A stretch of 64,000 nt of DNA from an uncultured Microbulbifer sp. (lineage in GTDB: Bacteria; Pseudomonadota; Gammaproteobacteria; Pseudomonadales; Cellvibrionaceae), in NCBI RefSeq assembly GCF_947498635.1, contig NZ_CANMKV010000015.1, forward strand, positions 1-64,000. Direction: 5' to 3'. This document shows, piece by piece, positions 6,520-33,179 of this stretch (its first letter is position 1; each line of letters opens with the position of its first letter). The translations under genes were made by a program, and so were the position numbers. Under the pieces are notes generated by a model. It had not been told where the DNA came from, ran no database searches, and saw nothing but the letters and a program-made list of their open reading frames with translations.

Positions 6520-7788
6520 ATGAGATGGCGTTGGTGGCAGAGGCTCAGGAGTTTTCCTCCTCTGGTCTGGATCGTTTTAATTGGCAGTTTTTTTAGCCGT
6601 GGCACCTACTTTATGGTTTGGCCTTTTCTGGCCATTCTTTTATTTAAAAAATTTGAGTTGGGCACCGCGGAGATTGGGCTGATTCTCAGCGCATCGGCAA
6701 TTGGCGCGGCCCTTCTGGGTTTCTTTGTGGGCGCTTTGTCAGACCGCTATGGTCGCCGCAACATCCTGTTGCTGGGTTCGGCGATTAACTTGTTTTCTTT
6801 TGCGCTGTTAGCAATAAGCCAAACATTACCGGGATTTATTCTGGCAATGACGCTCTGTTCCATTGGTCGAGCGGTTTGGGAGCCGCCGGCTAGTGCGTTG
6901 ATTGGTGATGTGATCGATAACCAGGCAAACCGCGAGTTGGCCCTACAATTACGCTATTTTCTGATTAATGCGGGGGCGGCACTGGGGCCTATTGTCGGTG
7001 TTTGGGCGGGGCTCAGTGCGCAGCAGTCTACCTTTGGCTTAACCTCGCTCAGTTATCTGCTATTGGCACTGGCCTTTGTTTGGGGTTTTGCGAAAACAGA
7101 GGCGGGTCTGCGGGTAAAGGCTAGGGAAGATGGCACTGTGGCCCTGAGTAATACCTTGTCGGTATTGCGCAAGGACCATGTGTTTATGGTAGTGATTGTC
7201 GCCAATATCCTTACGATGTTTATCTATGCCCATATGGACTCCAGCTTGGTGCAGTATCTGACTCGATCAGGGGCGCCGCGACTGATTGAATTAATTTCCA
7301 GCATGATCTTTGTCAATGCAATAACCATTGTACTGTTGCAATTTCCGCTAATGCAGTTAATGCGTAAACTGGAGATTAGAGAGCGAATTATGATTGGGCT
7401 GGTAATATTGGCCGCCGCACAAGTGTGGTTTGCCCTAAATCCGATGTACTGGTTTTGGGGTTGGATGGGAGCGACTTTTGTCCTCAGCCTGGCGGAGGCG
7501 ATTCTCTTTCCTACCATGAGCGTGCAGATTGACCGCCTGGCGCCTGAGCATTTGCGAGGTACTTATTTTGGCGCCTCTTCCTTCTATGCATTGGGGTGGG
7601 CCCTGGCACCCCTGGCGGGTGGCTTGATTCTGGAGTCCTGGGATGGGCCAGTGCTCTACTGGTGCCTGCTGGTACTTTGTGGGGTGGTATTCGTTCTTTA
7701 TCGTACTACGGCTTACCTATCCCGCCCGCAGTGGCCCGATTTAAAGGGCGAGGCGTTTGCACCGGAGAGAGATGCCAAAGTTACTTAA
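6520..7788 (+). CDS. MFS transporter, drug-efflux type (MdtH-like)
   Basis: A 422-residue inner-membrane protein with about twelve hydrophobic segments. The major-facilitator signature after TM2 reads GALSDRYGRRNILL (about residues 76-89), matching GxLxDRxGRR. The helix containing RAVWEPPASALIGD resembles the TM4-5 region of MdtH/MdtG-type proton-coupled multidrug exporters. ATG 6520 has GGAG about ten bases upstream. The gene stands alone, between the orphan terminator and the convergent fadH. The substrate cannot be predicted from sequence; the family call is firm. Confidence 0.85.
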   Translation: MRWRWWQRLRSFPPLVWIVLIGSFFSRGTYFMVWPFLAILLFKKFELGTAEIGLILSASAIGAALLGFFVGALSDRYGRRNILLLGSAINLFSFALLAISQTLPGFILAMTLCSIGRAVWEPPASALIGDVIDNQANRELALQLRYFLINAGAALGPIVGVWAGLSAQQSTFGLTSLSYLLLALAFVWGFAKTEAGLRVKAREDGTVALSNTLSVLRKDHVFMVVIVANILTMFIYAHMDSSLVQYLTRSGAPRLIELISSMIFVNAITIVLLQFPLMQLMRKLEIRERIMIGLVILAAAQVWFALNPMYWFWGWMGATFVLSLAEAILFPTMSVQIDRLAPEHLRGTYFGASSFYALGWALAPLAGGLILESWDGPVLYWCLLVLCGVVFVLYRTTAYLSRPQWPDLKGEAFAPERDAKVT

Positions 7789-22173: not shown

Positions 22174-24825
22174 TTACTTCAATAACTTGCGTAAAGAATA
22201 GAGTGCTTCCAGAGCTTGACGTGGCGTCATATCGTCTGGGTCCAGCTCCTCTAAGGCGTCCACCGCCGGGTGGCCGGGGCTGCCAAACAGGTCAACCTGC
22301 TGGGGAGAACCGGGGGCTGTAGCCTCTGGAGTAGCGATTGTTTCTGGTGCTTGTTTGGAAACTGGTGCGGGATTCGAGATAGGCGCTGGCACATCCACGG
22401 ATTGAGCTCCGGCCTCCAGTGCCGCCAAGCGAGCGCGGGCCTCGGTGAGCACATCTGCGGGGATGCCCGCCAGCTTGGCCACCTGTAAACCGTAACTCTT
22501 AGAGGCGGGGCCTTCCTGGATACGGTGCAGGAAGACAATTCCCTCACCGTGTTCGGTAGCATCCAGGTGAATATTGGCCGCTTCCGCACACTGGTTGGGC
22601 AGATCGGTCAATTCAAAGTAATGGGTGGCGAACAGGGTGAAGGCGCGCACTTCACCGGCCAGGTAGTGCGCGCAAGCCCAGGCCAGGGAGAGCCCGTCGT
22701 AAGTACTGGTACCGCGGCCGATCTCATCCATAAGAACTAGGCTGTGCTCGCTGGCATTGCGCAGGATATTGGCAGTCTCGGTCATCTCCACCATAAAGGT
22801 CGAGCGGCCACCGGCCAGGTCATCGGCGCTGCCGATGCGGGTGAAGATGCGGTCGAGCAAGCCGATTTGAGCCTTGTCTGCGGGTACATAACTACCGCAG
22901 TGCGCCAGCAGGGCGATCAATGCGGTTTGGCGCATATAGGTAGATTTACCACCCATATTCGGGCCAGTAATCACCAACATGCGGCGGTTGTCGCGCAATT
23001 CGATATCGTTGGCCACAAAGGGTTCGTCCAACACCTGCTCCACCACTGGGTGGCGTCCGCCGCTGATATGCAGGCCCGGCTCAGTGCCCAGCTCGGGGCG
23101 GCAGAGGCGCAGATTGTCGGCGCGCTCCGCCAAACAGGCCAATACGTCCAGCTCAGAGATGCCCGCGGCGGCGGCTTGCAACTGGGCCAGGGAGGCATTT
23201 AGTTGACTGATGAGCTCTTCATAGAGCGCCTTTTCCCGCGCTAGGGCGCGGCTCTTGGCGGAGAGCGCCTTGTCTTCAAACTCCTTAAGTTCCGGAGTGA
23301 TAAAGCGTTCGGCATTCTTCAGGGTCTGACGGCGAATATAATCCGCTGGTGCCTTGTCGCTCTGCCCACGGCTGATTTCAATAAAGTAGCCGTGCACCCG
23401 GTTGTAACCCACTTTCAGGGTGGGAATACCGGTGCGCTCTTTCTCCCTTACTTCCAGTTGCACCAGGTAGTCCCCGGCGTTTTCGCTAATAGCGCGCAGC
23501 TCGTCCAGCTCTTCGTCGTAGCCGGTGGCGATAACGCCACCATCGCGTATTACGACGGGTGGATTCTCAATAATGGCGCTCTGCAGTAACTCTACAGTCT
23601 CAGGCCACTCACCGACCTGGCCGCACAGTTCTTTTAATAGCGCGGCGTCTGACTCCGCCAGCTGCTGCTGGATTTCTGGGAACTGTGCTAGGGACTGGCC
23701 CAGTCGTGCCAAGTCACGGGGGCGCGCGGAACGCAGTGCCAAGCGGCCCAGGATTCGCTCCATATCGCCCACGGGTTTGAGGGCATCGCGTAGGGGCTCA
23801 AAGCCATAATCGGCAATCAGTGCAGCAATGGCATCCTGGCGCCTGCGTAGGATAGTGAGCTGGCGCAGCGGATTGTTCAGCCAGCGGCGCAATAGGCGAC
23901 TCCCCATGGCGGTTTTACAGCTATCAAAAACTGACAACAGGGTGTTGTCATCACCGCCATTCAGGTTTAGATCGATTTCCAGGTTGCGGCGACTGGCGCC
24001 ATCCAGAGCGACCGTTTCATCGCCACTTTCGGTCAGCAGGCCGCGAATATGGGGCAATTCGGTGCGCTGGGTGTCCCGCGCGTATTGCAGCAGGCAACCG
24101 GCGGCCACCACAGCGCCATGCATATGGCTGCACCCGAAGGCTTCCAGGTTCATGGTGCCAAACTGCTGGTTGAGTAAGCGCAGCGCGGTTTCCAGTTCGA
24201 ACTCCCAGGGCGCGCGGCGGCGCACACCGGCACGGCGCTCGATTTCCACTGGCAGGGCAAGATCCTCCGGCGCTAACAACTCCGCCGGATTGTGGCGCAG
24301 AACCTGTTCGGCCAGTGCTTCCAGGGTATCCGTTTCCTGTATCACAAAGCGGCCGGTGGCCAGATCCAATAACGCTAAGCCGAATACATCACCCAGGTGC
24401 GAGATGGCTGCCAGCAGGTTATCGCGACGGTCGTTAAGCAGCGCCTCATCGGTAACTGTACCGGGGGTCACAATACGAACCACCTGTCGCTCAACAGGCC
24501 CCTTGCTGGTGGCCGGATCACCAATTTGCTCACAGATTGCTACAGATACGCCAGCCTTAAGCAAACGCGCCAAATAGCCCTCTGCCGCGTGATAGGGAAT
24601 GCCTGCCATCGGGATTGGCTCCCCGCCGGATTTGCCCCGAGCGGTGAGGGTGACATCCAGCAGTTCTGACGCCTTCTTGGCATCGTCAAAGAACAGCTCG
24701 TAGAAATCTCCCATGCGGTAGAACACCAGCTCTTGTGGATGCTGTGCCTTGATGCGTAAAAACTGCTGCATCATAGGAGTATGTTCGGGTTTATCGGCTT
24801 TGGTCTTATTTGCGGTTCTTGGCAT
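22174..24825 (-). CDS. mutS: DNA mismatch repair ATPase MutS
   Basis: An 883-residue protein, a little longer than E. coli MutS (853). The start is ATG 24825 ([12 protein letters not shown]); the frame opens earlier only through a TTG. The mismatch-probing FxE motif is in [11 protein letters not shown] (about residue 36). The ATPase domain has [13 protein letters not shown] (Walker A, about residue 617), the signature region STFMVEMTE and [14 protein letters not shown] (Walker B). The end has a variable proline/alanine linker ([13 protein letters not shown]) and a C-terminal dimer helix ([13 protein letters not shown]). It recognises replication errors and recruits MutL. The gene appears fully intact. 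No Shine-Dalgarno sequence is obvious. Confidence 0.97.
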
Positions 24826-25609
24826 TTTATTCAATAAAATCAATAAGTTACAAAAAAATTTGCAACCCCGAGAGCCCCGCAGGAAACGCGGCTGGCTCAG
24901 ATCGGGGTAGGGGGCAGGCTTGTTTGCGGGCTTAATATGCAGAAGCGTTCGATCAAATATTGAACGGAAAGCCCAAACCTGATGTTCCTGAAGCGCGCAA
25001 TTACAGCAGGTCTGGGCAGAGAGGCCCAGCCCAAAGTTCGGAGGGCTTCTTTACAGGGGGCGCAGAATAGCAGAGTGAGGGGCAAACCACTATGGATGGC
25101 CGGCGTGGAGGTTGTGGGTTGTTGTAACATGGAGTTTCTGTTGTGGGTTAGTGATGTTGCTTCTTGCTTTTTGCTTTTAAGCTCAAGCCGTCAATATTCC
25201 CCATTTAAATACTTTTTTGAAGAAAAATCTCCCGTGATAGTCACCCTTAAAGTTGGGTAAAAAGATCCATTAAATCAGAAAATTTTTCTTCTAATGAATA
25301 CGCTGGCGCATCAAAATTGTGAATAAATGGAAAAAAAGGGGTTCTGTCCTGCTTCGTGTGTCAGAGATTGAGAGGCGCTTCTTATTTTTCTGGGAAAAAT
25401 TTCCTAACTTATTGATATTTATGGGAATCAAAAAATGATATATGGCAGAGAAAGCCCAGAAATATAATGCATCGGCTATATATCTACTTGTATAATTTTG
25501 CGCCAACAGAGAAAAGCCGCTGATAATATTGATTTTTTCAGGGTTTTATGGGTGGATGCGGAAAAACTATATAAAAGGGTGATATATAGACGCTTCTTTT
25601 GAATTAACT
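24826..25609. other. intergenic region between mutS and the cassette array
   Basis: This 784-base gap contains the mutS promoter (minus strand) and increasingly AT-rich sequence toward the array. No integrase gene, attI site with a clear integrase-binding pattern, RNA gene or convincing protein frame was found. A 92-codon frame at 24982-25260 has no motif and no ribosome binding site. An ATATAAAAG/GATATATAG segment at 25568-25590 could be promoter sequence for the first cassette; this is a guess. Confidence 0.5.
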
Positions 25610-25628
25610 GTTATGTGTCATCGAGTTT

Positions 25629-26207
25629 ATGAGTATCGAGATAGGTAAAGTCAGAAAATTGGAGCAGAGAAGGCAACTTCTCTTACTTCCAGTCGCGATC
25701 GCACTTACGTGTGTCTGGGTGGCGCTGTATGTATTTCATGTAAGAAATGACATCCAAGTGTCAGGCATTCACCTTTGGGGTATTTCAAAGTACATTTGAT
25801 TTAATACCATTATAGTTTTTGCTGGTCTTTCTACTTGCAGTTTATTTTCCTTTTTCTCTAGATTACTAATATGGTCTCGTTTAAAAAGCGTGCCGAATTT
25901 TCGGGTGAAAAGAGGAATCGCTGTAGCTCAGCTGGTGAAGTGCATGTTAATTGCAATTATCTCTTTGGTTATCTTCATGATTTTGCATCAGCTAATCTTA
26001 GGTAATGTGCAATGGATCAATCGCCAACTATCAGTCTATTCAGTTGCAGTGGAGTTGGTCTCTTTTTGTATGTGGTTTGTCGGTACAATACTTATCCTGG
26101 GAGCGTATGGTGGCTACTTGGTTTCATCAATTAAGGCACCGTTCCAGTTCGTAAAAAACAATGAGATCCACATTGACTTCAGTGCCAACGATGGTGGGAC
26201 CACATAA
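25629..26207 (+). pseudogene. cassette membrane protein interrupted by one in-frame TGA
   Basis: ATG 25629 opens a frame (MSIEIGKVRKLEQRRQ followed by a hydrophobic helix) that stops at TGA 25797-25799 after 56 codons. The same frame then runs on without interruption to the TAA at 26205-26207, encoding three more hydrophobic helices. Read through, it is a 192-residue four-helix membrane protein; the lost codon was plausibly TGG (Trp). The stop codon at the end lies inside the attC left core CATAACAA. No family was recognised. A shorter product could start within the second part (ATG 25950), but no ribosome binding site supports it. Confidence 0.7.
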
Positions 26208-26315
26208 CAAGCAGCGGCAGAGCGACAACCAACGCTACGCACCTTTTGTGTTACTCGCTGGCACTCAAACATTAACACGAAATGCGCTCCGCGCTGGCTG
26301 CGCTGGGCGTTAACT
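26203..26315 (+). repeat. attC site 1 (113 bp)
   Basis: The left core CATAACAA overlaps the preceding stop codon; the right core is GTTAACT. The arms AACAAGCAGCGGCAGAGCG and the complement of GCGCTGGCTGCGCTGGGCG pair imperfectly, as expected of a long attC with an imperfect stem. Confidence 0.7.
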
Positions 26316-26324
26316 GTTCAAAGT

Positions 26325-26736
26325 ATGAATCGCATAAGAAATTTTTTCTATGAGTTTCAGTATTCTAAGTATGTGAGAGGACTGCCTTTCTATGTCGTGC
26401 GACATTCTGGGATCAAGAAATCTTACTCGGCCAAAGACATAGATCGAGCGATTGAGAAATATGGGTTTAATTGCAGGTATTCACCAATCGGCTATGCGAT
26501 ACTGTGGAAACAGGAATAAGTATAAGTTGAAGGCGAAAGCCTATTCACCACATCCCTCACGTGAATATATTCGAGATAGAATCTCCAAGAGGTACTTTAA
26601 AAGGGAAGGATTTCGGGTTAATGAGCTAATGAAACTTTCCCTTTTCAAGTTCACAGCTAAAGGAGAGCTTTTTGTTGATCCTAATGAATATTGGGAGTGT
26701 CTGGCTAAGATCGAGGAGCAAACAGTTAATAAGTAA
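26325..26736 (+). pseudogene. small cassette protein (DUF6559-like?) broken by a frameshift
   Basis: ATG 26325 encodes a 64-residue frame (MNRIRNFFYEFQYSKYVRGL) ending at TAA 26517-26519. The next frame continues directly (NKYKLKAKAYSPHPSREYIR and on) to TAA 26734-26736, just before an attC site. Removing one T at the TAA (GAATAAG to GAAAAG) joins them as WKQEKYKLKAKA, a protein of about 136 residues. The N-terminal pattern resembles a family of short cassette-borne proteins (DUF6559, from memory). Alternatively, the short frame is the real gene and the rest is non-coding. Confidence 0.5.
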
Positions 26737-26740
26737 AGGC

Positions 26741-26799
26741 GCCCAACGTCAAAACCTCCGCTGCACTTTGGTTTGGCTCAGGTGCTTTAGGTGTTATGC
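26741..26799 (+). repeat. attC site 2 (59 bp)
   Basis: Left core GCCCAAC (perfect RYYYAAC) and right core GTTATGC, as in many Vibrio cassettes, span exactly 59 bp. Arms AACGTCAAAACCTCC and AACACCTAAAGCACC (complement of the right side) match at most positions. This is one of the two best attC sites here. Confidence 0.85.
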
Positions 26800-26817
26800 A
26801 ATGGTACTAGATTAGTT

Positions 26818-27252
26818 ATGAAAATAATTGAAGAATACACAATCCAAGAGCTGCAAGAAGCAATCGTAGGAATAGACAAGGAAGCTAACCCCGAAAGATA
26901 TGCGGAGATAAAATCTGAGTTCTCTAAAAAGAAGATAAAAGTTCAAGAGTTGCATTATAAGATTTTAGAACTGTCAGGTGCTAACCCCATACAAAGAGCA
27001 GCCAGTGAGAACGTAAATTCGTTTACTTTTAAGCGCTGTTTTCTTGCTAGCTGCTGCAGTATAGGTCTGCTGTGGCTGTTTCTTGGAGTTTTGGGTCTAT
27101 TAGGGCTGGGTACGGTCACGGCAAACGGTGAGCAAGTACATGGTGTTAGTGCACTAGTTACAGCTGCACTTGGTGGTGGGTTGAGTTGTCTAATCGTAGC
27201 TTTTTCGGTCTGGGTAGGTGAGAAATTACTCCAGGTCTTCGAAAATGCATAA
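26818..27252 (+). CDS. cassette-borne two-helix membrane protein, unknown function
   Basis: A 144-residue protein starting MKIIEEYTIQELQEAIVGID at ATG 26818. A charged N-terminal half (about residues 1-60, probably helical) is followed by two hydrophobic segments (CSIGLLWLFLGVLGLLGLG, about 77-95; LGGGLSCLIVAFSVWVG, about 118-134). It lies 19 bases after attC site 2 and its stop lies in the next attC-like left core (GCATAACAA). No family was recognised. The frame is intact, unlike several neighbours. A longer start at 26791 would overlap the attC site and is rejected. Confidence 0.65.
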   Translation: MKIIEEYTIQELQEAIVGIDKEANPERYAEIKSEFSKKKIKVQELHYKILELSGANPIQRAASENVNSFTFKRCFLASCCSIGLLWLFLGVLGLLGLGTVTANGEQVHGVSALVTAALGGGLSCLIVAFSVWVGEKLLQVFENA

Positions 27253-27312
27253 CAATCACAGGCCGTATGCTACGGCCCTGCTTGCTTCCGCGGGACGTCT
27301 TACCTTTGGCGC
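27248..27312 (+). repeat. degenerate attC-like site 3
   Basis: The left core GCATAACA overlaps a stop codon. An internal hairpin GGCCGTA-TGC-TACGGCC follows, but no clean GTTRRRY right core is present. It is assigned mainly because of its position between cassette genes. Confidence 0.35.
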
Positions 27313-27335
27313 TACAACCCAATGAGAGATCAGAT

Positions 27336-28061
27336 ATGAGAATTGGATTTTTCTATCAATCATAATGTTTGCCTTTCCTGCTTGGGCAAATCCTGTGCCG
27401 GACTTCCCTTTTGTAATTGTTACGGAGAGACTCGATAAAAAAGCGAAACCGGATTACGTGAAAATTCAGTTTAACTTGTTGGTATATGAAGGCTCCTCAG
27501 AAAAGGCTGTCGAATCACTTTCGAGATCAGCTATTCAAATGCTTGAAGTTCTTGAAAAATATGAAATCTCCGCCAAGAAGATAAAATCAACAAAAATCGA
27601 TAAGAATGCTAAGAGGGCCAGAAAGGATGGATTTTTTAATCTAGATATTCTGGACTACGAAGTAACGCAGGATTTTAGCGTGGAAGTTGAAAATCTATCC
27701 AAATATCCAGAAATAATGAATGGCCTTTTCGAGTTGGATGGTGTTCAAAACTTGGATGCGCTCTTCGAAACTAAAAAGAAGAAAGAGTATCAAGATGAAA
27801 TGATCGCAGAGTTCAGTCAAAAAAGTGCGAGAAAAGGAAGAAACTCTTGCAGAAGTTCAAGCACGAAAAGTTAAGTCTGTATATGGAGTCACAATGGAAG
27901 GAAGATTCGGACAAGCTTACGCAGTATTTGCATTAGAATTCGGGCCTAGTGAAATAATGACGGCTTATGATGTCGGCAAGTCCGGTATGGGTTTAATTAT
28001 GTCAGTGCCTGAGTATATTGAAGTCAATCAGCATATTACTGCTATATGTGAGTTGAAATAG
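27336..28061 (+). pseudogene. SIMPL-domain (DUF541) secreted protein with two frame breaks
   Basis: The body of the gene (27365-27874, then 27825-28061 in another frame) reads as a SIMPL/DUF541 protein: PFVIVTERLDKKAKPDYVKI through LSRSAIQMLEVLEKYEISAKK and DYEVTQDFSVEVENL to YGVTMEGRFGQAYAVFALEF. The first break is near the start: ATG 27336 (MRIGFF) runs into a stop unless one base is restored in a T run, which then yields a normal signal peptide (LSIIMFAFPAWA). The second is one extra A in the six-A run at 27819-27824; removing it joins EFSQK to VREKEETLAEV. Both breaks are in homopolymers. SIMPL proteins are envelope proteins of unclear function. Confidence 0.7.
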
Positions 28062-28165
28062 GTGTTGTGCAAAAAAAGTAGTGGCAGGGTCATCAGTTTG
28101 ACGGCCTTACGCGGCGCTTCAGGCGGTATTAGAGAAAGTTTTATTCATAGAAGAAGGAAAGATAG

Positions 28166-28741
28166 ATGTTTAATAGGTTGATGATTGTATTTCTTGGGGT
28201 TTTGTTTTTTTCAGGCTGTGCGACCCAAAGTAATCATATGACAAAAGTTACACCGGAATCCGTTATAACAAAACCCGAAGAAGGTAAGGCGTTGATTCAT
28301 TTTATGAGACCTTCCAATTATGGCGGAGCAGTTCAGTCGACGATTTACAACGAATCTAATTATCTAGGTACAGTGTCAGCGCAAACAAGAGTTGCCTACC
28401 AAGCGGACCCTGGCAAGCATATGTTTATGGTTATTGGAGAAAATGCAGATTTCCTTGAAGCGAATCTCTTGGAAAATAAAACCTACTATGTTTTGGTGTC
28501 GCCCAGAATGGGAGTATGGAAGGCTAGGTTTAGTTTAAATCCCGCAAGTGGAGGTGTATCTCAACAGCAGATTGATAGCTGGTACAATAGCACAACCGAA
28601 GTTGTGCCTAATGAGGCTGGTTTAGATTGGGCAAAAAGCAAAGCAAGTGAAATTGAAAAATTGAAATCTAAGTATCTGCCTAAATGGCAACAGAAAGCTG
28701 AAGGTGATAAACAGAGATTAAAGCCAGAAAGCGGCATATGA
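28166..28741 (+). CDS. cassette-borne lipoprotein, DUF2846-like
   Basis: A 191-residue lipoprotein. The signal peptide MFNRLMIVFLGVLFFSGC has a lipobox FSGC (acylated Cys at residue 18). The following domain (KALIHFMRPSNYGG, then DPGKHMFMVIGENADFLEANL and KTYYVLVSPRMG) resembles the DUF2846 beta-sandwich of small surface lipoproteins. The C-terminal 50 residues are helical and charged. GAAGGAAAG precedes the ATG. The frame is intact and is followed by a good attC site. Located at the outer membrane by inference; function unknown. Confidence 0.75.
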   Translation: MFNRLMIVFLGVLFFSGCATQSNHMTKVTPESVITKPEEGKALIHFMRPSNYGGAVQSTIYNESNYLGTVSAQTRVAYQADPGKHMFMVIGENADFLEANLLENKTYYVLVSPRMGVWKARFSLNPASGGVSQQQIDSWYNSTTEVVPNEAGLDWAKSKASEIEKLKSKYLPKWQQKAEGDKQRLKPESGI

Positions 28742-28744
28742 TAT

Positions 28745-28854
28745 TTCCAACAAAGTGTTGAGTGTGGACCTAGCTACGCTCCACCAGCATGTGGTTCACT
28801 CGCATTACCACGTGCTGGTTCCTCTGCACTGGGCCAGTTAACACGACGTTAAAG
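28745..28854 (+). repeat. attC site (110 bp)
   Basis: The left core TTCCAAC and right core GTTAAAG flank arms that match well (AACAAAGTGTTGAGTG against AACGTCGTGTTAACTG, complement). An internal hairpin CCAGCATGTGGT / ACCACGTGCTGG forms the stem end. Confidence 0.75.
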
Positions 28855-28862
28855 AGCTAATT

Positions 28863-29366
28863 ATGTATCGAGTAGTATTCGTGGTTTTTACAGTCTTGCT
28901 TCTATCTAGTTGTGTTGGCTTAGCTGTTGGCACTTATGGGAAAAAAGAGTGGGCTAGAGCCGATTTTCGTCTAGCCAAAGAGCGAAATCAGTTTGCCTTT
29001 GAGAAAAAAGATGAACCGTATACGGAAGAGGGGATAATCGAATATTGGGGGCAGCCAGACTCTGTAGGTGCATTCAAAGAGTGTAAAGTTTTAATTTATA
29101 AAGATGGAGCCTCTTGGGCAGGTGGTGGAGCATTTGTAGGGGTCGTACCAGTACCGCTTCTAGTTCCAACGGGCACATACAAAAATCGGTTTTACCTACA
29201 GAACAATTCTGCAATAGGTCTTGTCCAAGAGCATGGTGAGGTAGACCGTGCAGTTGGTTATACTTGTGGTGGCAACGAATGCATAACAAGCTCTGGTGAA
29301 AAAGTAAATGAGCCTGAAATTAATGCTCAGGAGGCGGTTGACCAGTGGTGTGCTAAATCCCCTTAA
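28863..29366 (+). CDS. cassette-borne lipoprotein, unknown family
   Basis: A 167-residue lipoprotein. The signal peptide MYRVVFVVFTVLLLSSC has a lipobox LSSC (Cys 17). The mature part includes EEGIIEYWGQPDSVGAFKEC, resembling the SmpA/OmlA-like or lipoprotein pattern in which a glycine-proline turn follows a helix. A glycine-rich segment GGGAFVGVVPVPLLVPTG follows, with further Cys residues near the C-terminus (CGGNEC, QWC). ATG 28863 lies nine bases after an attC right core. The frame is intact. Function unknown. Confidence 0.7.
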   Translation: MYRVVFVVFTVLLLSSCVGLAVGTYGKKEWARADFRLAKERNQFAFEKKDEPYTEEGIIEYWGQPDSVGAFKECKVLIYKDGASWAGGGAFVGVVPVPLLVPTGTYKNRFYLQNNSAIGLVQEHGEVDRAVGYTCGGNECITSSGEKVNEPEINAQEAVDQWCAKSP

Positions 29367-29470
29367 CAAGCCAGTCAAAACGACATTCTTTCCGTTGCTT
29401 GAATTTGTGCTTTTATGCTACTACAAACCCATTAACTAGAAAGCTGTTCTTGCTGGTGCTGGCGTTTAAG
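29361..29470 (+). repeat. attC site (110 bp)
   Basis: The left core CCTTAAC contains the preceding stop codon. The right side is GGCGTTTAAG. Outer arms share AAC-GCCAG (left AACAAGCCAG; right AACGCCAGCACC as complement). Confidence 0.6.
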
Positions 29471-29478
29471 GAAATTAC

Positions 29479-30240
29479 GTAAAATCTGGATGGTTGCTTT
29501 TAATAGCTTTGTTTGCTTTTAGTGCTGTGGCTGAAATCAGTCTTTTGAAAGTAAAAGGCTACAATGTTGAATATGAGGTAAAGGAAATGGGCAGCACACT
29601 GTTCTCCTCGTGGCTGGTGGCTCTGCTCTTTTATCAGACTGGGACCCAGTCTTTGAAGATTTAGCAAAAAAGCAAAAGTGGTTCGCTATTCAAGAATTTG
29701 AAATGGAGGTTCTGAGAAGATCAGGAAAAACTATACCTCCCTGCATTCAACTCTGAAGAATATGCTCAAGAGGCATCTTTTTTTCTTGATGCTTTAAAAA
29801 TAGAACAACCTGTCGTTTATGTGGCTCACTCTTATGGGGCGTATATAACAAGAAGATTCGCTTCAATGTACCCTGATAAAATCTTGGTTTTAATGCTGAT
29901 AGAGCCTGCTTCAGAGTATGACGTTGATATAATGCGTAAAATTGATTTAGAGTTAGCTGGAAAACAAATAGCCCAAGTAAAGCTAGATGATCTTGCCAGT
30001 GGTATGTCTAATCAGTATCTAGACTTTTGGTCAAAAGGTCCATTACCAGATTACCCCCCAAATACCAGGTATTCCAGTAACTGTAATAGCGTCAACAAAA
30101 AAATTTGAAGACTCACCACTTTTATTTTTCACGGATCCAACTCGCGATATGTGAGGGCAATTGCACTCGGGCTGGGTACATTCTTTTCCGCAGGGCAAAG
30201 CAGTTTCTACAGATAAAAGCTATCGTTATCCACAAAGTTA
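29479..30240 (+). pseudogene. alpha/beta hydrolase gene with several frameshifts
   Basis: Pieces in different frames join into one secreted alpha/beta hydrolase. They are a signal peptide (WLLLIALFAFSAVAEI, from 29491), an oxyanion-strand region (TVLLVAGGSALLSDWDPVFE), the nucleophile elbow VVYVAHSYGAYITRRFASMY (frame open 29821-30108), then IPGIPVTVIASTKKFEDSPL in another frame, and a C-terminal HSGWVHSFPQGKAV with the expected catalytic His region, ending at TAG 30238-30240. At least three shifts and one in-frame stop separate the pieces, and no start codon remains. It cannot make a full-length enzyme. Confidence 0.8.
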
Positions 30241-30287
30241 GGAAGGTAAGCTTTCGTACAATTTTTGATCGCTGCGACAGGGCTGTT

Positions 30288-30460
30288 TTGGGTCAGTTTC
30301 TATTTATATTGATTGCAATTGTCTTCTTTTTAATTTATATCGCGCATAGCAAATTCGTGGTGTTCCAGTGGTTCTTCTACTGCCTCTCTCAATAATGTTA
30401 TCATTCATTGTGTTTATAGTTGCTTGGATAAAGAGGTGTTCCGTAATTTATAACTATTAA
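30288..30460 (+). pseudogene. remnant of a small membrane protein
   Basis: One frame encodes FLFILIAIVFFLIYIAHSK. The adjacent frame continues as VPVVLLLPLSIMLSFIVFIV to a TAA at 30458-30460, directly before an attC site. Joining the two by a one-base shift near 30360 gives a two-helix membrane protein tail. The N-terminal part is not recognisable. The call rests on hydrophobic continuity and position only. Confidence 0.4.
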
Positions 30461-30542
30461 ACCAACCAGCTTCTCTTCGGCCCTATAGGCCTCCATCGGA
30501 CAGCCTGCTCCGCTTCGGCTGCCGGTTGTTGCGACGTTAGAT
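30460..30542 (+). repeat. attC site (83 bp)
   Basis: The right core GTTAGAT is a perfect GTTRRRY. The left core AACCAAC lies next to the stop of the preceding remnant. Inner arms CTTCTCTTCGG and CCGAAGCGGAGCAGG (complement) pair partly. Confidence 0.7.
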
Positions 30543-30579
30543 TAGTAATTAAATATAACCGATGAAAAAGGAAGGATAA

Positions 30580-31119
30580 ATGAGTTCCTATAAAACAATA
30601 AAGCCACTTCTTATGATAGTGGTGTTCTCCATATTGTATGGTTGCGGCTCTGCGCATGTGAAAACTGATATTCAATCCCAAAATATTGGGAGTTACAGAA
30701 ATATATTAATTCAAGATGTAAGAGTATATTCTAATGAGCAAGCAGCGAAGAGTAATGCTCCACTTCAAGAAAAATTGAAGAGGTGGGAGTCATATTCTCG
30801 TACTCAACTTGAACAATATGTCAACGGCAGTAAATACACGCTAATCAACTCGCTAGATGAAGCAGAAGGGAATACATTGCTAGTAGATCTTGATGTCAAT
30901 GTTCAATATGGCAACAGGGCATTGCGCTGGGTTGTCGGTTTTGGCGCTGGAAAAGGTGGTGTGGACTCAGTATTGACCGTTAAGGACTCTGAAACTGGCG
31001 AGGTTATGTATAAGGCTAATGCAGATAGTGACTTATCCATGGGAGGAGCCGGCGGAGATATAGGCGATGTCCTTGAGGAAAATATAAAAGAACTTATTAA
31101 GCAGTATAGTGACGCATAA
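30580..31119 (+). CDS. cassette-borne lipoprotein, DUF4410-like
   Basis: A 179-residue lipoprotein with signal peptide MSSYKTIKPLLMIVVFSILYGC and lipobox LYGC (Cys 22). The domain NILIQDVRVYSNEQA, NTLLVDLDVNVQYGNRALRW and a glycine-rich GFGAGKGGVDSVLTVKDSET resembles DUF4410, a family of periplasmic or outer-membrane-attached lipoproteins with GxGxG motifs. AAGGA precedes the ATG. The stop lies just before a perfect attC left core. The frame is intact. Confidence 0.75.
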   Translation: MSSYKTIKPLLMIVVFSILYGCGSAHVKTDIQSQNIGSYRNILIQDVRVYSNEQAAKSNAPLQEKLKRWESYSRTQLEQYVNGSKYTLINSLDEAEGNTLLVDLDVNVQYGNRALRWVVGFGAGKGGVDSVLTVKDSETGEVMYKANADSDLSMGGAGGDIGDVLEENIKELIKQYSDA

Positions 31120-31178
31120 ATCTAACAGTTCAAGTAAGAGGGGCGTGCCAAAGCGCGCCTCTTCTTGATGTGTTAAGC
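31120..31178 (+). repeat. attC site (59 bp), best conserved in the array
   Basis: Left core ATCTAAC (perfect RYYYAAC) and right core GTTAAGC (perfect GTTRRRY) span exactly 59 bp. Arms CAAGTAAGAGGGGCG and CGCGCCTCTTCTTG are almost fully complementary with a one-base bulge, the asymmetry that integrases use to choose the strand. Confidence 0.92.
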
Positions 31179-31192
31179 GTCTGAGTAACTGA

Positions 31193-31552
31193 ATGATCGA
31201 GATTAAAAAATTGAAAGTATGGAGATGGGAAAAGGGTAGGCAGGAAACTGGTTATGAGAAGTTCTTTTTGATCGGTTCTAAATGGCCAATTCCTTTTGAT
31301 TTTTATATTCTTCGGTTCAGGGAAGGCGCTGAAATTCCGCCTCACACAGATAAAGTTACGGAAGGTAATCACTACCGCTTAAATGTAGTTATAAAGAAAG
31401 CAAAAACTGGTGGTGAATTTTTATGCAGGTCACCGATCTTTGAAAGTTCCCGGGTGAAATACTTCCGTCCAGACCTTTCAGAGCATTCTGTCTCAAAGGT
31501 GGTTTCGGGTACTCGCTATGTACTTAGTCTTGGGTGGGTGTGGCAGGTATAA
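31193..31552 (+). CDS. cassette-borne 2OG-Fe(II) oxygenase-like protein
   Basis: A 119-residue protein. The core FDFYILRFREGAEIPPHTDK supplies the HxD metal pair (His-Thr-Asp, near residue 52). HYRLNVVIKKAKTGGEFLC forms the next strands, and a distal EHSVSKVVSGTRYVLSLGW supplies the second His and an Arg for 2-oxoglutarate binding. This is a minimal double-stranded beta-helix dioxygenase pattern. ATG 31193 lies 15 bases after the best attC site. The frame is intact. Substrate unknown. Confidence 0.7.
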   Translation: MIEIKKLKVWRWEKGRQETGYEKFFLIGSKWPIPFDFYILRFREGAEIPPHTDKVTEGNHYRLNVVIKKAKTGGEFLCRSPIFESSRVKYFRPDLSEHSVSKVVSGTRYVLSLGWVWQV

Positions 31553-31680
31553 TAAGTTGTTGTATCCGATCACCTACACTTCGCCCGCTTTGTGCATTGC
31601 GCTACGCTAGCAAAAAGTGATTCCATTCCATTCCGGTGCGGTTGTATAAAACTATAAAACGTGATGTGGACGCAAAAAAA

Positions 31681-31937
31681 ATGGGGAAAAACATGATTAA
31701 GATCGTTCTGATAGGTTTCACTGTTGGGGCACTTGTCTCAATCCTCTATAGCTTTCTTACTGTATCCGCGATTGGCAGGAATATGATGACTGGTGAGCCC
31801 ATGCGCTTTAGAGGATTCCAAGCGATCTATGTCTTCATCAATGAGAATGGGCTGGCTATTTGGTAAATTTTCTGCCCGTGTTCATAATCGCTATTTTGGC
31901 TGCTTGTGCCTTTGGCTGCGTAGTCCATAACAAGTGA
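31681..31937 (+). pseudogene. small membrane protein with a one-base frameshift
   Basis: ATG 31681 (MGKNMIKIVLIGFTVGALVS) encodes one hydrophobic helix and stops at TAA 31864-31866. The next frame continues as VNFLPVFIIAILAACAFGCV to TGA 31935-31937. Adding one T (ATTTGG to ATTTTGG) joins them as GLAILVNFLPV, restoring a two-helix protein of about 85 residues whose end overlaps an attC-like left core (CCATAACAAG). The second part may instead be non-coding. Confidence 0.5.
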
Positions 31938-32435
31938 TTATGGTCCTTCGTCTAGTGTTTAAGCCATGTTTTTGTCCCGGTAGGTGTTGTTTTTCACCAC
32001 CATGTTCTGGATGGTAAGTTGTTTTCTCATACGAGTGATGAAGGCTGCATTCTAAGTTTTGCCAGCATTGACTAGGCGTTTATGTATTGGTTTTTGCTTA
32101 CAGTTATATTTCTCTATCAGAGAAAAATTATGTTTTTTCTTAGTTCACTGTCAGGTTCTCTCTCTCAGCGCTATAAAGCCTCTGGCTGAGTAAATTATCT
32201 GTGAGATAGCCGATACGCGTGATGATACTTTGATCTACACGCCAGTTACCTCTTATTGTCTAGTGTCGGTCAGTATGGTTCGCCTATTTAAAATGTTGTC
32301 ATTTTTCATTACGGCTAAATCTAAATAAGAGCTTGGTTGTTTTTATGTAATCTATATTTTTAATATTCTGAGCCTGATAGTTTGATAGTTTGATAGTTTG
32401 ATAGTTTTTGATAGTTTGGTAGATGAGTAGGTGTA
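31938..32435. other. intergenic region from the array end to the Spo0M-like gene
   Basis: This contains a possible truncated final attC (31925-31963, right side GTGTTTAAGC), AT-rich sequence and a GATAGTTT tandem repeat near its end. No gene or RNA was recognised. Confidence 0.5.
32376..32417 (+). repeat. GATAGTTT short tandem repeat
   Basis: Five copies of the 8-mer GATAGTTT, the last separated by two extra T, end about 18 bases before the Spo0M-like start codon. They lie where promoter or leader elements would be. Copy-number change could alter expression. Confidence 0.85.
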
Positions 32436-33179
32436 ATGTTTCAGAAGTTAAAGGCTTCTTTGGGAATCGGTGCCGCGAAGGTGGATACGGTGCTGGAGAG
32501 TAGTAGCGTATTTCAGGGTGAGATTATCCGCGGAGATATTCATATTTTGGGTGGTGACGTTGAGCAGGCTATTGAGGCGATCAGTGTAAAGGTATGTACT
32601 GAAGTAAAAGTTGAAACCGATAATGGGATTAATTATAGCGATTTTGTGCTGGATGCTGTTCAGGTTGTCGATACATTCACCATTGGTGTTGGTGAGAATA
32701 GGAAGCTCCGCTTTGAGATCAAGCTAAATGACGAGGTGCCGATTACTGTGCTGAGGGCGCGGAAAAATCAATGCAGGGTTTGGCTGGAAACCGCTCTCGA
32801 TATCGATTTTGCATTAGATCCAAAGGACAGAGACTACCTCGAAGTTAAACCATTGCCTGTTGTAGCAGATATTATTGCGATGATAGAGCAGAGCGGTTTT
32901 AGCTTGGTGAAAACCGATGTGGAAAAAGGGTACCTTCGAGGGGGCTCATTTTCCTCACGCTCAGGCTGTTACCAAGAAATTGAGTTTAAAGGTGGCAGCT
33001 TTTTAGGGGCTAAAGAAATTGAACTTTCCTTTACCTTAGATGCGGGCACCATTCACTGCCTTGCGGAGATAGACCGTAAATTTGGCGTGCGGGGTGATGA
33101 ATATCTCTCCTTTTCACTCGGCATGAATGCCTGTGAGAGGGAAATTGAGTTTGCGGTTGCGTCTACTCTTTCTCGCTAG
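32436..33179 (+). CDS. Spo0M-like (sporulation-control) family protein
   Basis: A 247-residue protein starting MFQKLKASLGIGAAKVDTVL. The order (GEIIRGDIHILGGDVEQAI, then a beta-rich arrestin-like body with PITVLRARKNQCRVWLETAL and LDPKDRDYLEVKPLP) matches the SpoOM family, which adopts an arrestin-like fold. Despite the name the family is common in non-sporulating bacteria, and its role there is unclear. The C-terminal half (residues about 165-240) is a second beta domain. A GATAGTTT repeat precedes it. It is a core-like gene directly beyond the cassette array. Confidence 0.85.
   Translation: MFQKLKASLGIGAAKVDTVLESSSVFQGEIIRGDIHILGGDVEQAIEAISVKVCTEVKVETDNGINYSDFVLDAVQVVDTFTIGVGENRKLRFEIKLNDEVPITVLRARKNQCRVWLETALDIDFALDPKDRDYLEVKPLPVVADIIAMIEQSGFSLVKTDVEKGYLRGGSFSSRSGCYQEIEFKGGSFLGAKEIELSFTLDAGTIHCLAEIDRKFGVRGDEYLSFSLGMNACEREIEFAVASTLSR

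Follow-up and report, generated by a model that had tools for sequence, protein, structure and literature searches.

The stretch of DNA analysed here, a window of 64,000 nucleotides from an uncultured Microbulbifer sp. that forms part of contig C15 (103,456 bases) in a 4.5-Mb genome of 173 contigs, harbours beside mutS an array of gene cassettes which, to judge from sequence comparison, is most probably an integron that has lost its integrase gene intI, has kept its attI site and would have been loaded with cassettes in trans, such platforms being common in the genus. This reading draws on the homology of attI and its leader, the array of attC sites, the absence of intI, the intI remnants at five other attI sites of this kind and on whole cassettes that are shared or differ between platforms. 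An earlier note, made from the sequence alone, had described the locus as a cluster of attC sites lacking integron integrases (CALIN). The label stands operationally, as two or more attC sites are clustered (seven at an expectation value (E) below 1) and no integron integrase is encoded in the 64-kb window, but it falls short of the locus, which is more than an attC cluster in that the attI of the lost integron and the leader of its intI are retained. The array limits given in that note are corrected accordingly, with the start set at attI and the right end at the remnant of an insertion sequence (IS), so that the whole unit comprises about 25342-32094.

At the head of the array lie two elements:

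25342..25617, plus strand: leader and attI, homologous by alignment to the stretch separating intI and attI in complete integrons
25589..25613, plus strand: attI core, identical in 25 of 25 positions to the attI beside an uninterrupted intI in G009

The segment 25342-25617 can be aligned to the DNA that separates intI from the first cassette in the complete integrons of G009, G003, G023 and the own contig C50 (G, C and L numbers designate genomes, contigs and loci). Its leader of approximately 270 bp is 67.7% identical over 279 bp to the DNA upstream of intI in G009 (L126) and 68-71% identical to the mutS loci of five relatives (G009, G051, G003, G013 and G059). The segment ends in GACGCTTCTTTTGAATTAACTGTTA, beyond which the sequences diverge, G003 and G051 excepted; as alignment with intI-linked leaders is followed by divergence, the array appears to begin with an attI that lacks its intI. 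Crossover is presumably to be expected after G25610 (G/TTA). Core identity and leader homology are thus those anticipated for the attI of a complete integron, while the intI that adjoins attI in a complete integron is absent from the window locus. The same approximately 270 bp in front of the first cassette, including the perfect core, contradict the alternative that the locus is an ordinary CALIN which arose without attI by off-target insertion of cassettes (at attG) beside mutS; such insertion is one proposed origin of CALINs (PMC8618304, in the portion of the text available), yet is very improbable here.

With respect to the integrase, the claim of the earlier note that none is present is borne out for the 64-kb window, as tblastn with both integrases of the own genome recovered no intI remnant (best E 0.096). 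The genome itself encodes two proteins above the cut-off of the integron integrase family TIGR02249, on contigs C26 and C50, both of which end within 0.7 kb of the respective intI. The C26 integrase is uninterrupted, has 326 amino acids, belongs to type B and is 71-72% identical to two Microbulbifer agarilyticus records; no type-A attI core is located near its gene (best match with 11 mismatches). The type-A integrase of C50 (G000:C50:24097-25035), 73% identical to the integrase of G009, whose attI core equals that of the window, contains an in-frame TAA at codon 228, which is either a real stop or a sequencing error. The genome search for intI suggested beforehand consequently yields two integron integrases of which just one is intact, and the proviso that the cassettes may still move if a functional integrase exists elsewhere is supported in part: the C26 integrase is intact but of another type, and the C50 integrase, most like the cognate of the window attI, is interrupted.

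The attC sites were identified with a covariance model. A rule-based detector was dropped, as it found arrays but with near-equal counts on both strands, a consequence of the near-palindromic nature of attC sites, and the covariance model, R1, was therefore used. R1 is built on 45 sites from integrase-proximal arrays of other genomes, the window and the own genome being excluded; 148 sites were detected, 8 mis-bounded ones dropped, the remaining 140 clustered to 50 representatives and 5 truncated or doubtful ones removed. These 45 sites possess the R and L boxes, the paired arms and the covariation of integron attC sites, with 83.0% of cells paired and a covariation of 0.485 versus 0.156 in shuffles (0/500). 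Of five measures of arm covariation, three were well above the shuffles, the exceptions being pairs changed on both sides and further pair types. With filters off, R1 gave nine hits up to E 5 in the window, seven of which, at E<1, are all on the plus strand within 5.5 kb (26202-31657), while the other two (12.3 bits, E 1.2; 11.0 bits, E 2.5) lie outside the array. The covariance-model search proposed in the earlier note thereby confirms the array. The sites are as follows:

26202..26315, plus strand: attC 1, the strongest (R1 44.7 bits, E 1.3e-8)
26724..26799, plus strand: attC 2 (R1 26.4 bits, E 4e-4), including the 59-bp site of the earlier note at 26741-26799
27248..27322, plus strand: truncated attC 3, the 5' part of a 144-nt attC family without the 3' part (54 matches of 48-65 nt at 77-90% identity in 18 loci)
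28743..28854, plus strand: attC 5 (R1 18.1 bits, E 0.045)
29361..29471, plus strand: attC 6 (R1 16.8 bits, E 0.091)
30448..30542, plus strand: attC 7 (R1 24.8 bits, E 1e-3)
31120..31178, plus strand: attC 8, exactly 59 bp (R1 15.8 bits, E 0.17; fold z -4.37)
31547..31657, plus strand: attC 9, degenerate (R1 13.8 bits, E 0.51)

The truncated attC 3 (approximately 27248-27322) is not hit by R1, and Rfam at gathering thresholds has no hit in the window. As four of the seven sites singly reach only E 0.045-0.51, the case rests on clustering, common orientation and the strong attC 1. The latter resembles array DNA of relatives at 85-97% identity (27 matches distributed over 13 loci, of which 11 adjoin integrases and 2 lie at mutS), attC 7 is 84% identical over 45-49 nt to DNA of relatives beside integrases, and attC 9 is 78% identical over 64 nt to the mutS array of G003. 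Throughout the own genome, R1 matches at E<=1 number at least 43 on 13 contigs, genome-wide attC counts being lower bounds with 150 candidates scored of 763 in the own genome, 987 in G018 and 767 in G051.

The attI without intI is not confined to the window. A strict attI core (25 bases, up to 3 mismatches) is found in 48 copies in 20 of the 48 genomes of the genus, with no match for the reversed pattern, and intI is located upstream of 8 of these copies but not of the other 40 (approximately 1.8 kb of upstream sequence was in hand for 39 of the 40, and just 30 bp for the orphan L284). Downstream of 32 of the 40 strict orphans, at least one attC (E<=0.1) follows on the attI strand within the stretch fetched, at most approximately 6 kb. 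Five orphans keep an N-terminal remnant of intI in the expected orientation, at a distance to attI of 265-275 bp (three), 424 bp and 717 bp, and therefore at least these five descend from complete integrons. A shorter, relaxed pattern matches 146 times in 40 of the 48 genomes; with four matches of the reversed control, a few relaxed orphans may be due to chance. Of the relaxed matches, 26 have an integrase match at a distance of 336-598 bp; for the other 120, no integrase match is encountered up to 900 bp away. Among 21 genomes from outside the genus, this pattern has hits in 3, four in all and each with one mismatch, versus two for the reversed control.

The sixteen single-contig genomes contain 46 orphan and 11 intI-linked relaxed attI sites, with up to seven orphans per genome. 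They thereby speak against an assembly artefact in which intI is hidden in a gap beside each orphan attI, a suspicion nourished by the 173 contigs of the own genome, the C26 and C50 contigs breaking off next to intI and the short upstream sequence of L284; as the window site, moreover, is situated inside a 103-kb contig beside mutS, the chance of such an artefact is next to negligible. In G018, 12 of 35 attC hits are located within 6 kb downstream of an orphan attI and 9 downstream of a linked attI; the corresponding numbers for G051 are 19 and 5 of 61. In both genomes the opposite strand is free of attC hits up to 6 kb from the listed attI sites. Four of the seven orphan attI sites of G051 lack an attC hit over the same 6 kb; all four are one-mismatch matches, three of them relaxed.

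In the own genome, five more attI-like sites without intI are present (C56:1432, C56:17297, C6:129773, C22:30146 and C32:42653). No intI was found in the 1.4 kb that precede the site at C56:1432, and downstream of it eight attC hits share its strand. In L309 (G058:C16), an attC hit at 6878-6970 precedes an orphan attI by approximately 0.8 kb on the same strand, as if two arrays had fused.

Exchange of cassettes at orphan attI sites is indicated by the comparison of 20 attI pairs, of which 10 are orthologous orphan-orphan pairs (at least 79% identity at -250..-60), 3 include a copy linked to intI and the remaining 7 are either paralogues or upstream too divergent for a judgement. In nine of the ten orthologous orphan pairs the two sequences are 79-98% identical at -250..-60 and 40-52% identical at +4..+40 past the crossover G; the tenth, G003/G051, still has a common first cassette. 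As three pairs stem from the mutS clade G003/G009/G051, the pairs are not all independent and represent eight separate comparisons by place and clade. The three pairs with high upstream similarity and an intI-linked copy break after GTTA as well. The two sites of G010/G018 are 100% identical over the last 60 bp and 45% thereafter, and in both G010/G018 and G013/G059 unrelated first cassettes follow upon 97-100% identity in the last 60 bp.

Identical cassettes at different platforms provide the counterpart. In the single-contig genome G018, where both integrases are uninterrupted, a linked and an orphan attI array 1.02 Mb apart have two cassettes in common. Cassette X (607 bp, 100% identical) occupies the first position behind the intI-linked attI and the second behind the orphan attI, and cassette Y (473 bp, 99.8%) is first at the orphan attI, directly abutting it, and farther along in the linked array. 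Both segments have a GTTA core at either edge and coincide with attC hits, and their neighbours differ. Likewise, two orphan platforms of G009 share cassette Z (496 bp, 99.8%). Repeated attC sites, families of which are 85-97% identical across arrays, might have given rise to such common cassettes by homologous recombination or gene conversion, without an integrase acting at an orphan attI; this is unlikely, as cassette Y abuts the orphan attI at GTTA and X and Y differ in order and neighbours. Since homology between attC sites cannot produce a junction of attI and cassette, we infer that an integrase acts at sites which have none in cis.

Two further repeats were encountered. An element of approximately 1.8 kb, likely an insertion sequence, is 99.8-99.9% identical in three G018 platforms (L320 3244-5149, L322 2166-4071 and L323 1405-3208), and L271 (own C6:111500-129000) contains about a dozen units of up to approximately 720 bp, 85-90% alike, further copies of which are found on C11 and C38; they may represent a family of repeated cassettes or genes.

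Several observations weigh against an integron loaded in trans. As DNA, just one of eight window stretches, that at 31120-31178, folds better than its shuffles, the other seven remaining within them (z -1.42 to +1.82); this is in keeping with decay or weak structure. With respect to the two sites described beforehand as exactly 59 bp, the one at 31120-31178 stands in length and folding, while that at 26741-26799 (z +1.82) is contained in an R1 hit but folds unconvincingly. None of 15 cassette open reading frames (ORFs) of the window matches any of 202 loci at E 1e-3, L144 and L153 not counted. Eight of the 40 strict orphans, among them those of the own contigs C22 and C32, are without an attC hit in the sequence covered. 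For the relaxed matches, the division into linked and orphan sites is based on integrase matches at E<=1e-30, a threshold that leaves room, site by site, for weaker remnants and for the ends of draft contigs. Finally, the strict pattern selects conserved cores, and the conservation of attI is therefore not an unbiased test.

Under the scenario of an integron loaded in trans, a chromosomal integron would have inserted beside mutS and subsequently lost intI, with attI, leader and cassette array left behind. An integrase encoded at another locus would recombine free cassettes by their attC with the orphan attI at G/TTA, and the leader, which aligns across copies, may drive expression of the first cassette. 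For the genus as a whole, it is rather likely that the integron is distributed, with one to three integrases feeding dispersed attI platforms without intI, up to seven per genome by the relaxed count, and attI outliving its own integrases. If so, several neighbourhoods of the chromosome would be open to cassette insertion, and CALINs headed by attI would be working outposts and not debris.

The site beside mutS varies among relatives. MutS is found in all 48 genomes of the genus, with 76-95% identity among relatives, and attC hits occur at the mutS site in seven relatives (G003, G009, G013, G049, G051, G058 and G059), but not in seven others, of which 6 kb (G004), 2.6 kb (G057) and 10-11 kb (G023, G012, G053, G043 and G016) were covered. 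The attI core is present at mutS in the window, G003, G009, G051, G013 and G059; no core was found beside mutS in G049, G058 and G004 (best match with at least 9 mismatches). The cassettes adjacent to attI at mutS differ among relatives except between G003 and G051. An ancestral block with the same gene order in all relatives, named in the earlier note as the finding that would overturn the array, is thus not what these relatives display. The gene matched in 9 of the 48 genomes, the own one counted, that brackets the array together with mutS in the window, G013 and G003 is presumably a Spo0M-like gene.

The description of about ten small same-strand genes interspersed with attC sites likewise holds, as approximately ten short ORFs on the plus strand at 25629-31866 are flanked by mutS and the Spo0M-like gene. 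Coordinates follow the ORF list unless stated otherwise:

22174..24843, minus strand: mutS, left flank (also by protein match)
25629..26207, plus strand: cassette 1 gene, membrane-protein-like, a single frame interrupted by TGA at 25797-25799 and listed as ORFs 25629-25799 and 25890-26207
26325..26736, plus strand: cassette 2, two ORFs (64 and 94 amino acids) that overlap
26818..27252, plus strand: cassette 3, small membrane protein, no family above cut-off
27365..28061, plus strand: cassette 4, SIMPL/DUF541 protein in two frames, 27365-27874 (PF04402, E 1.2e-9) and 27825-28061
28166..28741, plus strand: cassette 5, lipoprotein-like, with a weak DUF2846 match (E 0.052) below cut-off
28863..29366, plus strand: cassette 6, lipoprotein-like protein to which the family scans assign no family
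29494..30395, plus strand: decayed cassette stretch, a patchwork of short ORFs in differing frames
30580..31119, plus strand: cassette with a DUF4410-like lipoprotein (PF14366, E 1.9e-5, 25.1 bits versus a cut-off of 26)
31193..31552, plus strand: cassette, 2OG-Fe(II) oxygenase-like, below cut-off (PF13640, E 0.0017, 19.7 bits versus 27)
31636..31866, plus strand: last cassette gene, small membrane protein, no family above cut-off
31926..32094, minus strand: decayed 3' end of a transposase presumably of IS110/IS1111 type, with an attC-like TAACAAG edge (by homology and reading frame)
32436..33179, plus strand: Spo0M-like protein gene, right flank

Among ten cassette ORFs scanned against NCBIfam, Pfam and PADLOC, SIMPL (PF04402) alone passed the Pfam cut-off, the others having weak matches or none; in cassette 2, the 94-amino acid ORF, the sole one of the pair scanned, is above no family cut-off. 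We read the second frame of cassette 4 as the continuation of the SIMPL/DUF541 protein.

The IS remnant at 31926-32094 is 73-79% identical over 103-169 bp to ten loci representing nine places in seven relatives. It comprises the last approximately 45 codons with an internal stop and resembles the end of a 353-amino acid transposase-like ORF in L124 (G003). With the IS1111-attC insertion sequences reportedly treated by Tetu and Holmes in 2008, to judge by the title, it has in common a transposase of IS110/IS1111 type by an attC-like edge within arrays, as also seen in the 353-amino acid copy of G003, while in the window just the decayed 3' end is present. Separately, an element of approximately 1.2 kb, 98% alike at L264 6765-8009 (own C11) and L277 2135-3377 (own C22), is 84% identical to IS110/IS1111-type copies in the arrays of G003; its C22 copy is located approximately 0.26 kb downstream of an orphan attI.

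Cumulatively, six of seven attC sites below 27 bits, broken cassette 1 and SIMPL genes and one truncated attC are signs of decay, and in our view the window platform is partly decayed, old and little used, though with a perfect attI core. For the window alone it is a real possibility, tentatively put somewhat short of even, that the locus is a dead remnant at whose attI nothing moves today, which would be compatible with loading in trans in relatives. Weak attC sites, broken cassette genes, the IS end and the stop in the C50 integrase all favour such a state, to be set against the perfect attI core and the intact C26 integrase, though this is of the other type. On the genus level, a dead remnant is countered by the orphan pairs that are 97-100% alike with unrelated first cassettes and by a cassette 100% identical at an orphan and a linked attI. 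On the ground of weak attC sites, broken genes, IS cap and C50 stop, loading of the window platform in trans is therefore probably historical or rare.

Should a usable attI be present in many CALINs, several insertion points would be served by one integrase, the loss of intI at a locus would not end the life of an integron, and surveys would miscount active platforms. Whether recognition in trans keeps attI sites in place over speciation becomes testable, and up to 146 natural attI-like sequences, a few perhaps due to chance, are at hand to map the requirements of the integrase.

As far as the available portions of the papers go, CALINs have been regarded as probably degraded integrons (PMC9024848), attributed to off-target insertion, intI loss or rearrangement (PMC8618304) and described as subject to mobilisation in trans when a functional integrase is present (PMC12444791), while the standard finder seeks attI only for class 1 integrons (PMC9024848). 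No report of CALINs headed by attI was found in the literature searched, which is weak evidence of absence with most subscription papers outside its coverage. The locus resembles known CALINs in its attC array without nearby intI; in contrast to them, the cluster is headed by attI and an intI leader, with the appearance of a recombining site and several per genome. The Delta-attI-type cassettes of mobile integrons are alike in that IntI1 recombines displaced attI-derived sites, which, according to the part of the paper available, are located within unusual resistance cassettes, whereas here a whole attI with its leader heads a chromosomal array (PMC12901181). With sedentary chromosomal integrons the system shares attI, attC families, the same-strand array and a TIGR02249 integrase in the genome, but differs in that intI is missing at the locus and platforms are dispersed over the chromosome. 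The nearest precedent found, likened by description and not by sequence, is Saccharophagus degradans 2-40, for which the portion of the paper available describes five satellite clusters in addition to a core integron, the same 140-bp repeat being present along with some duplicated genes; the authors, in whose text the word attI is absent, suggest that transposition of the repeat creates the satellite sites (PMC2386152).

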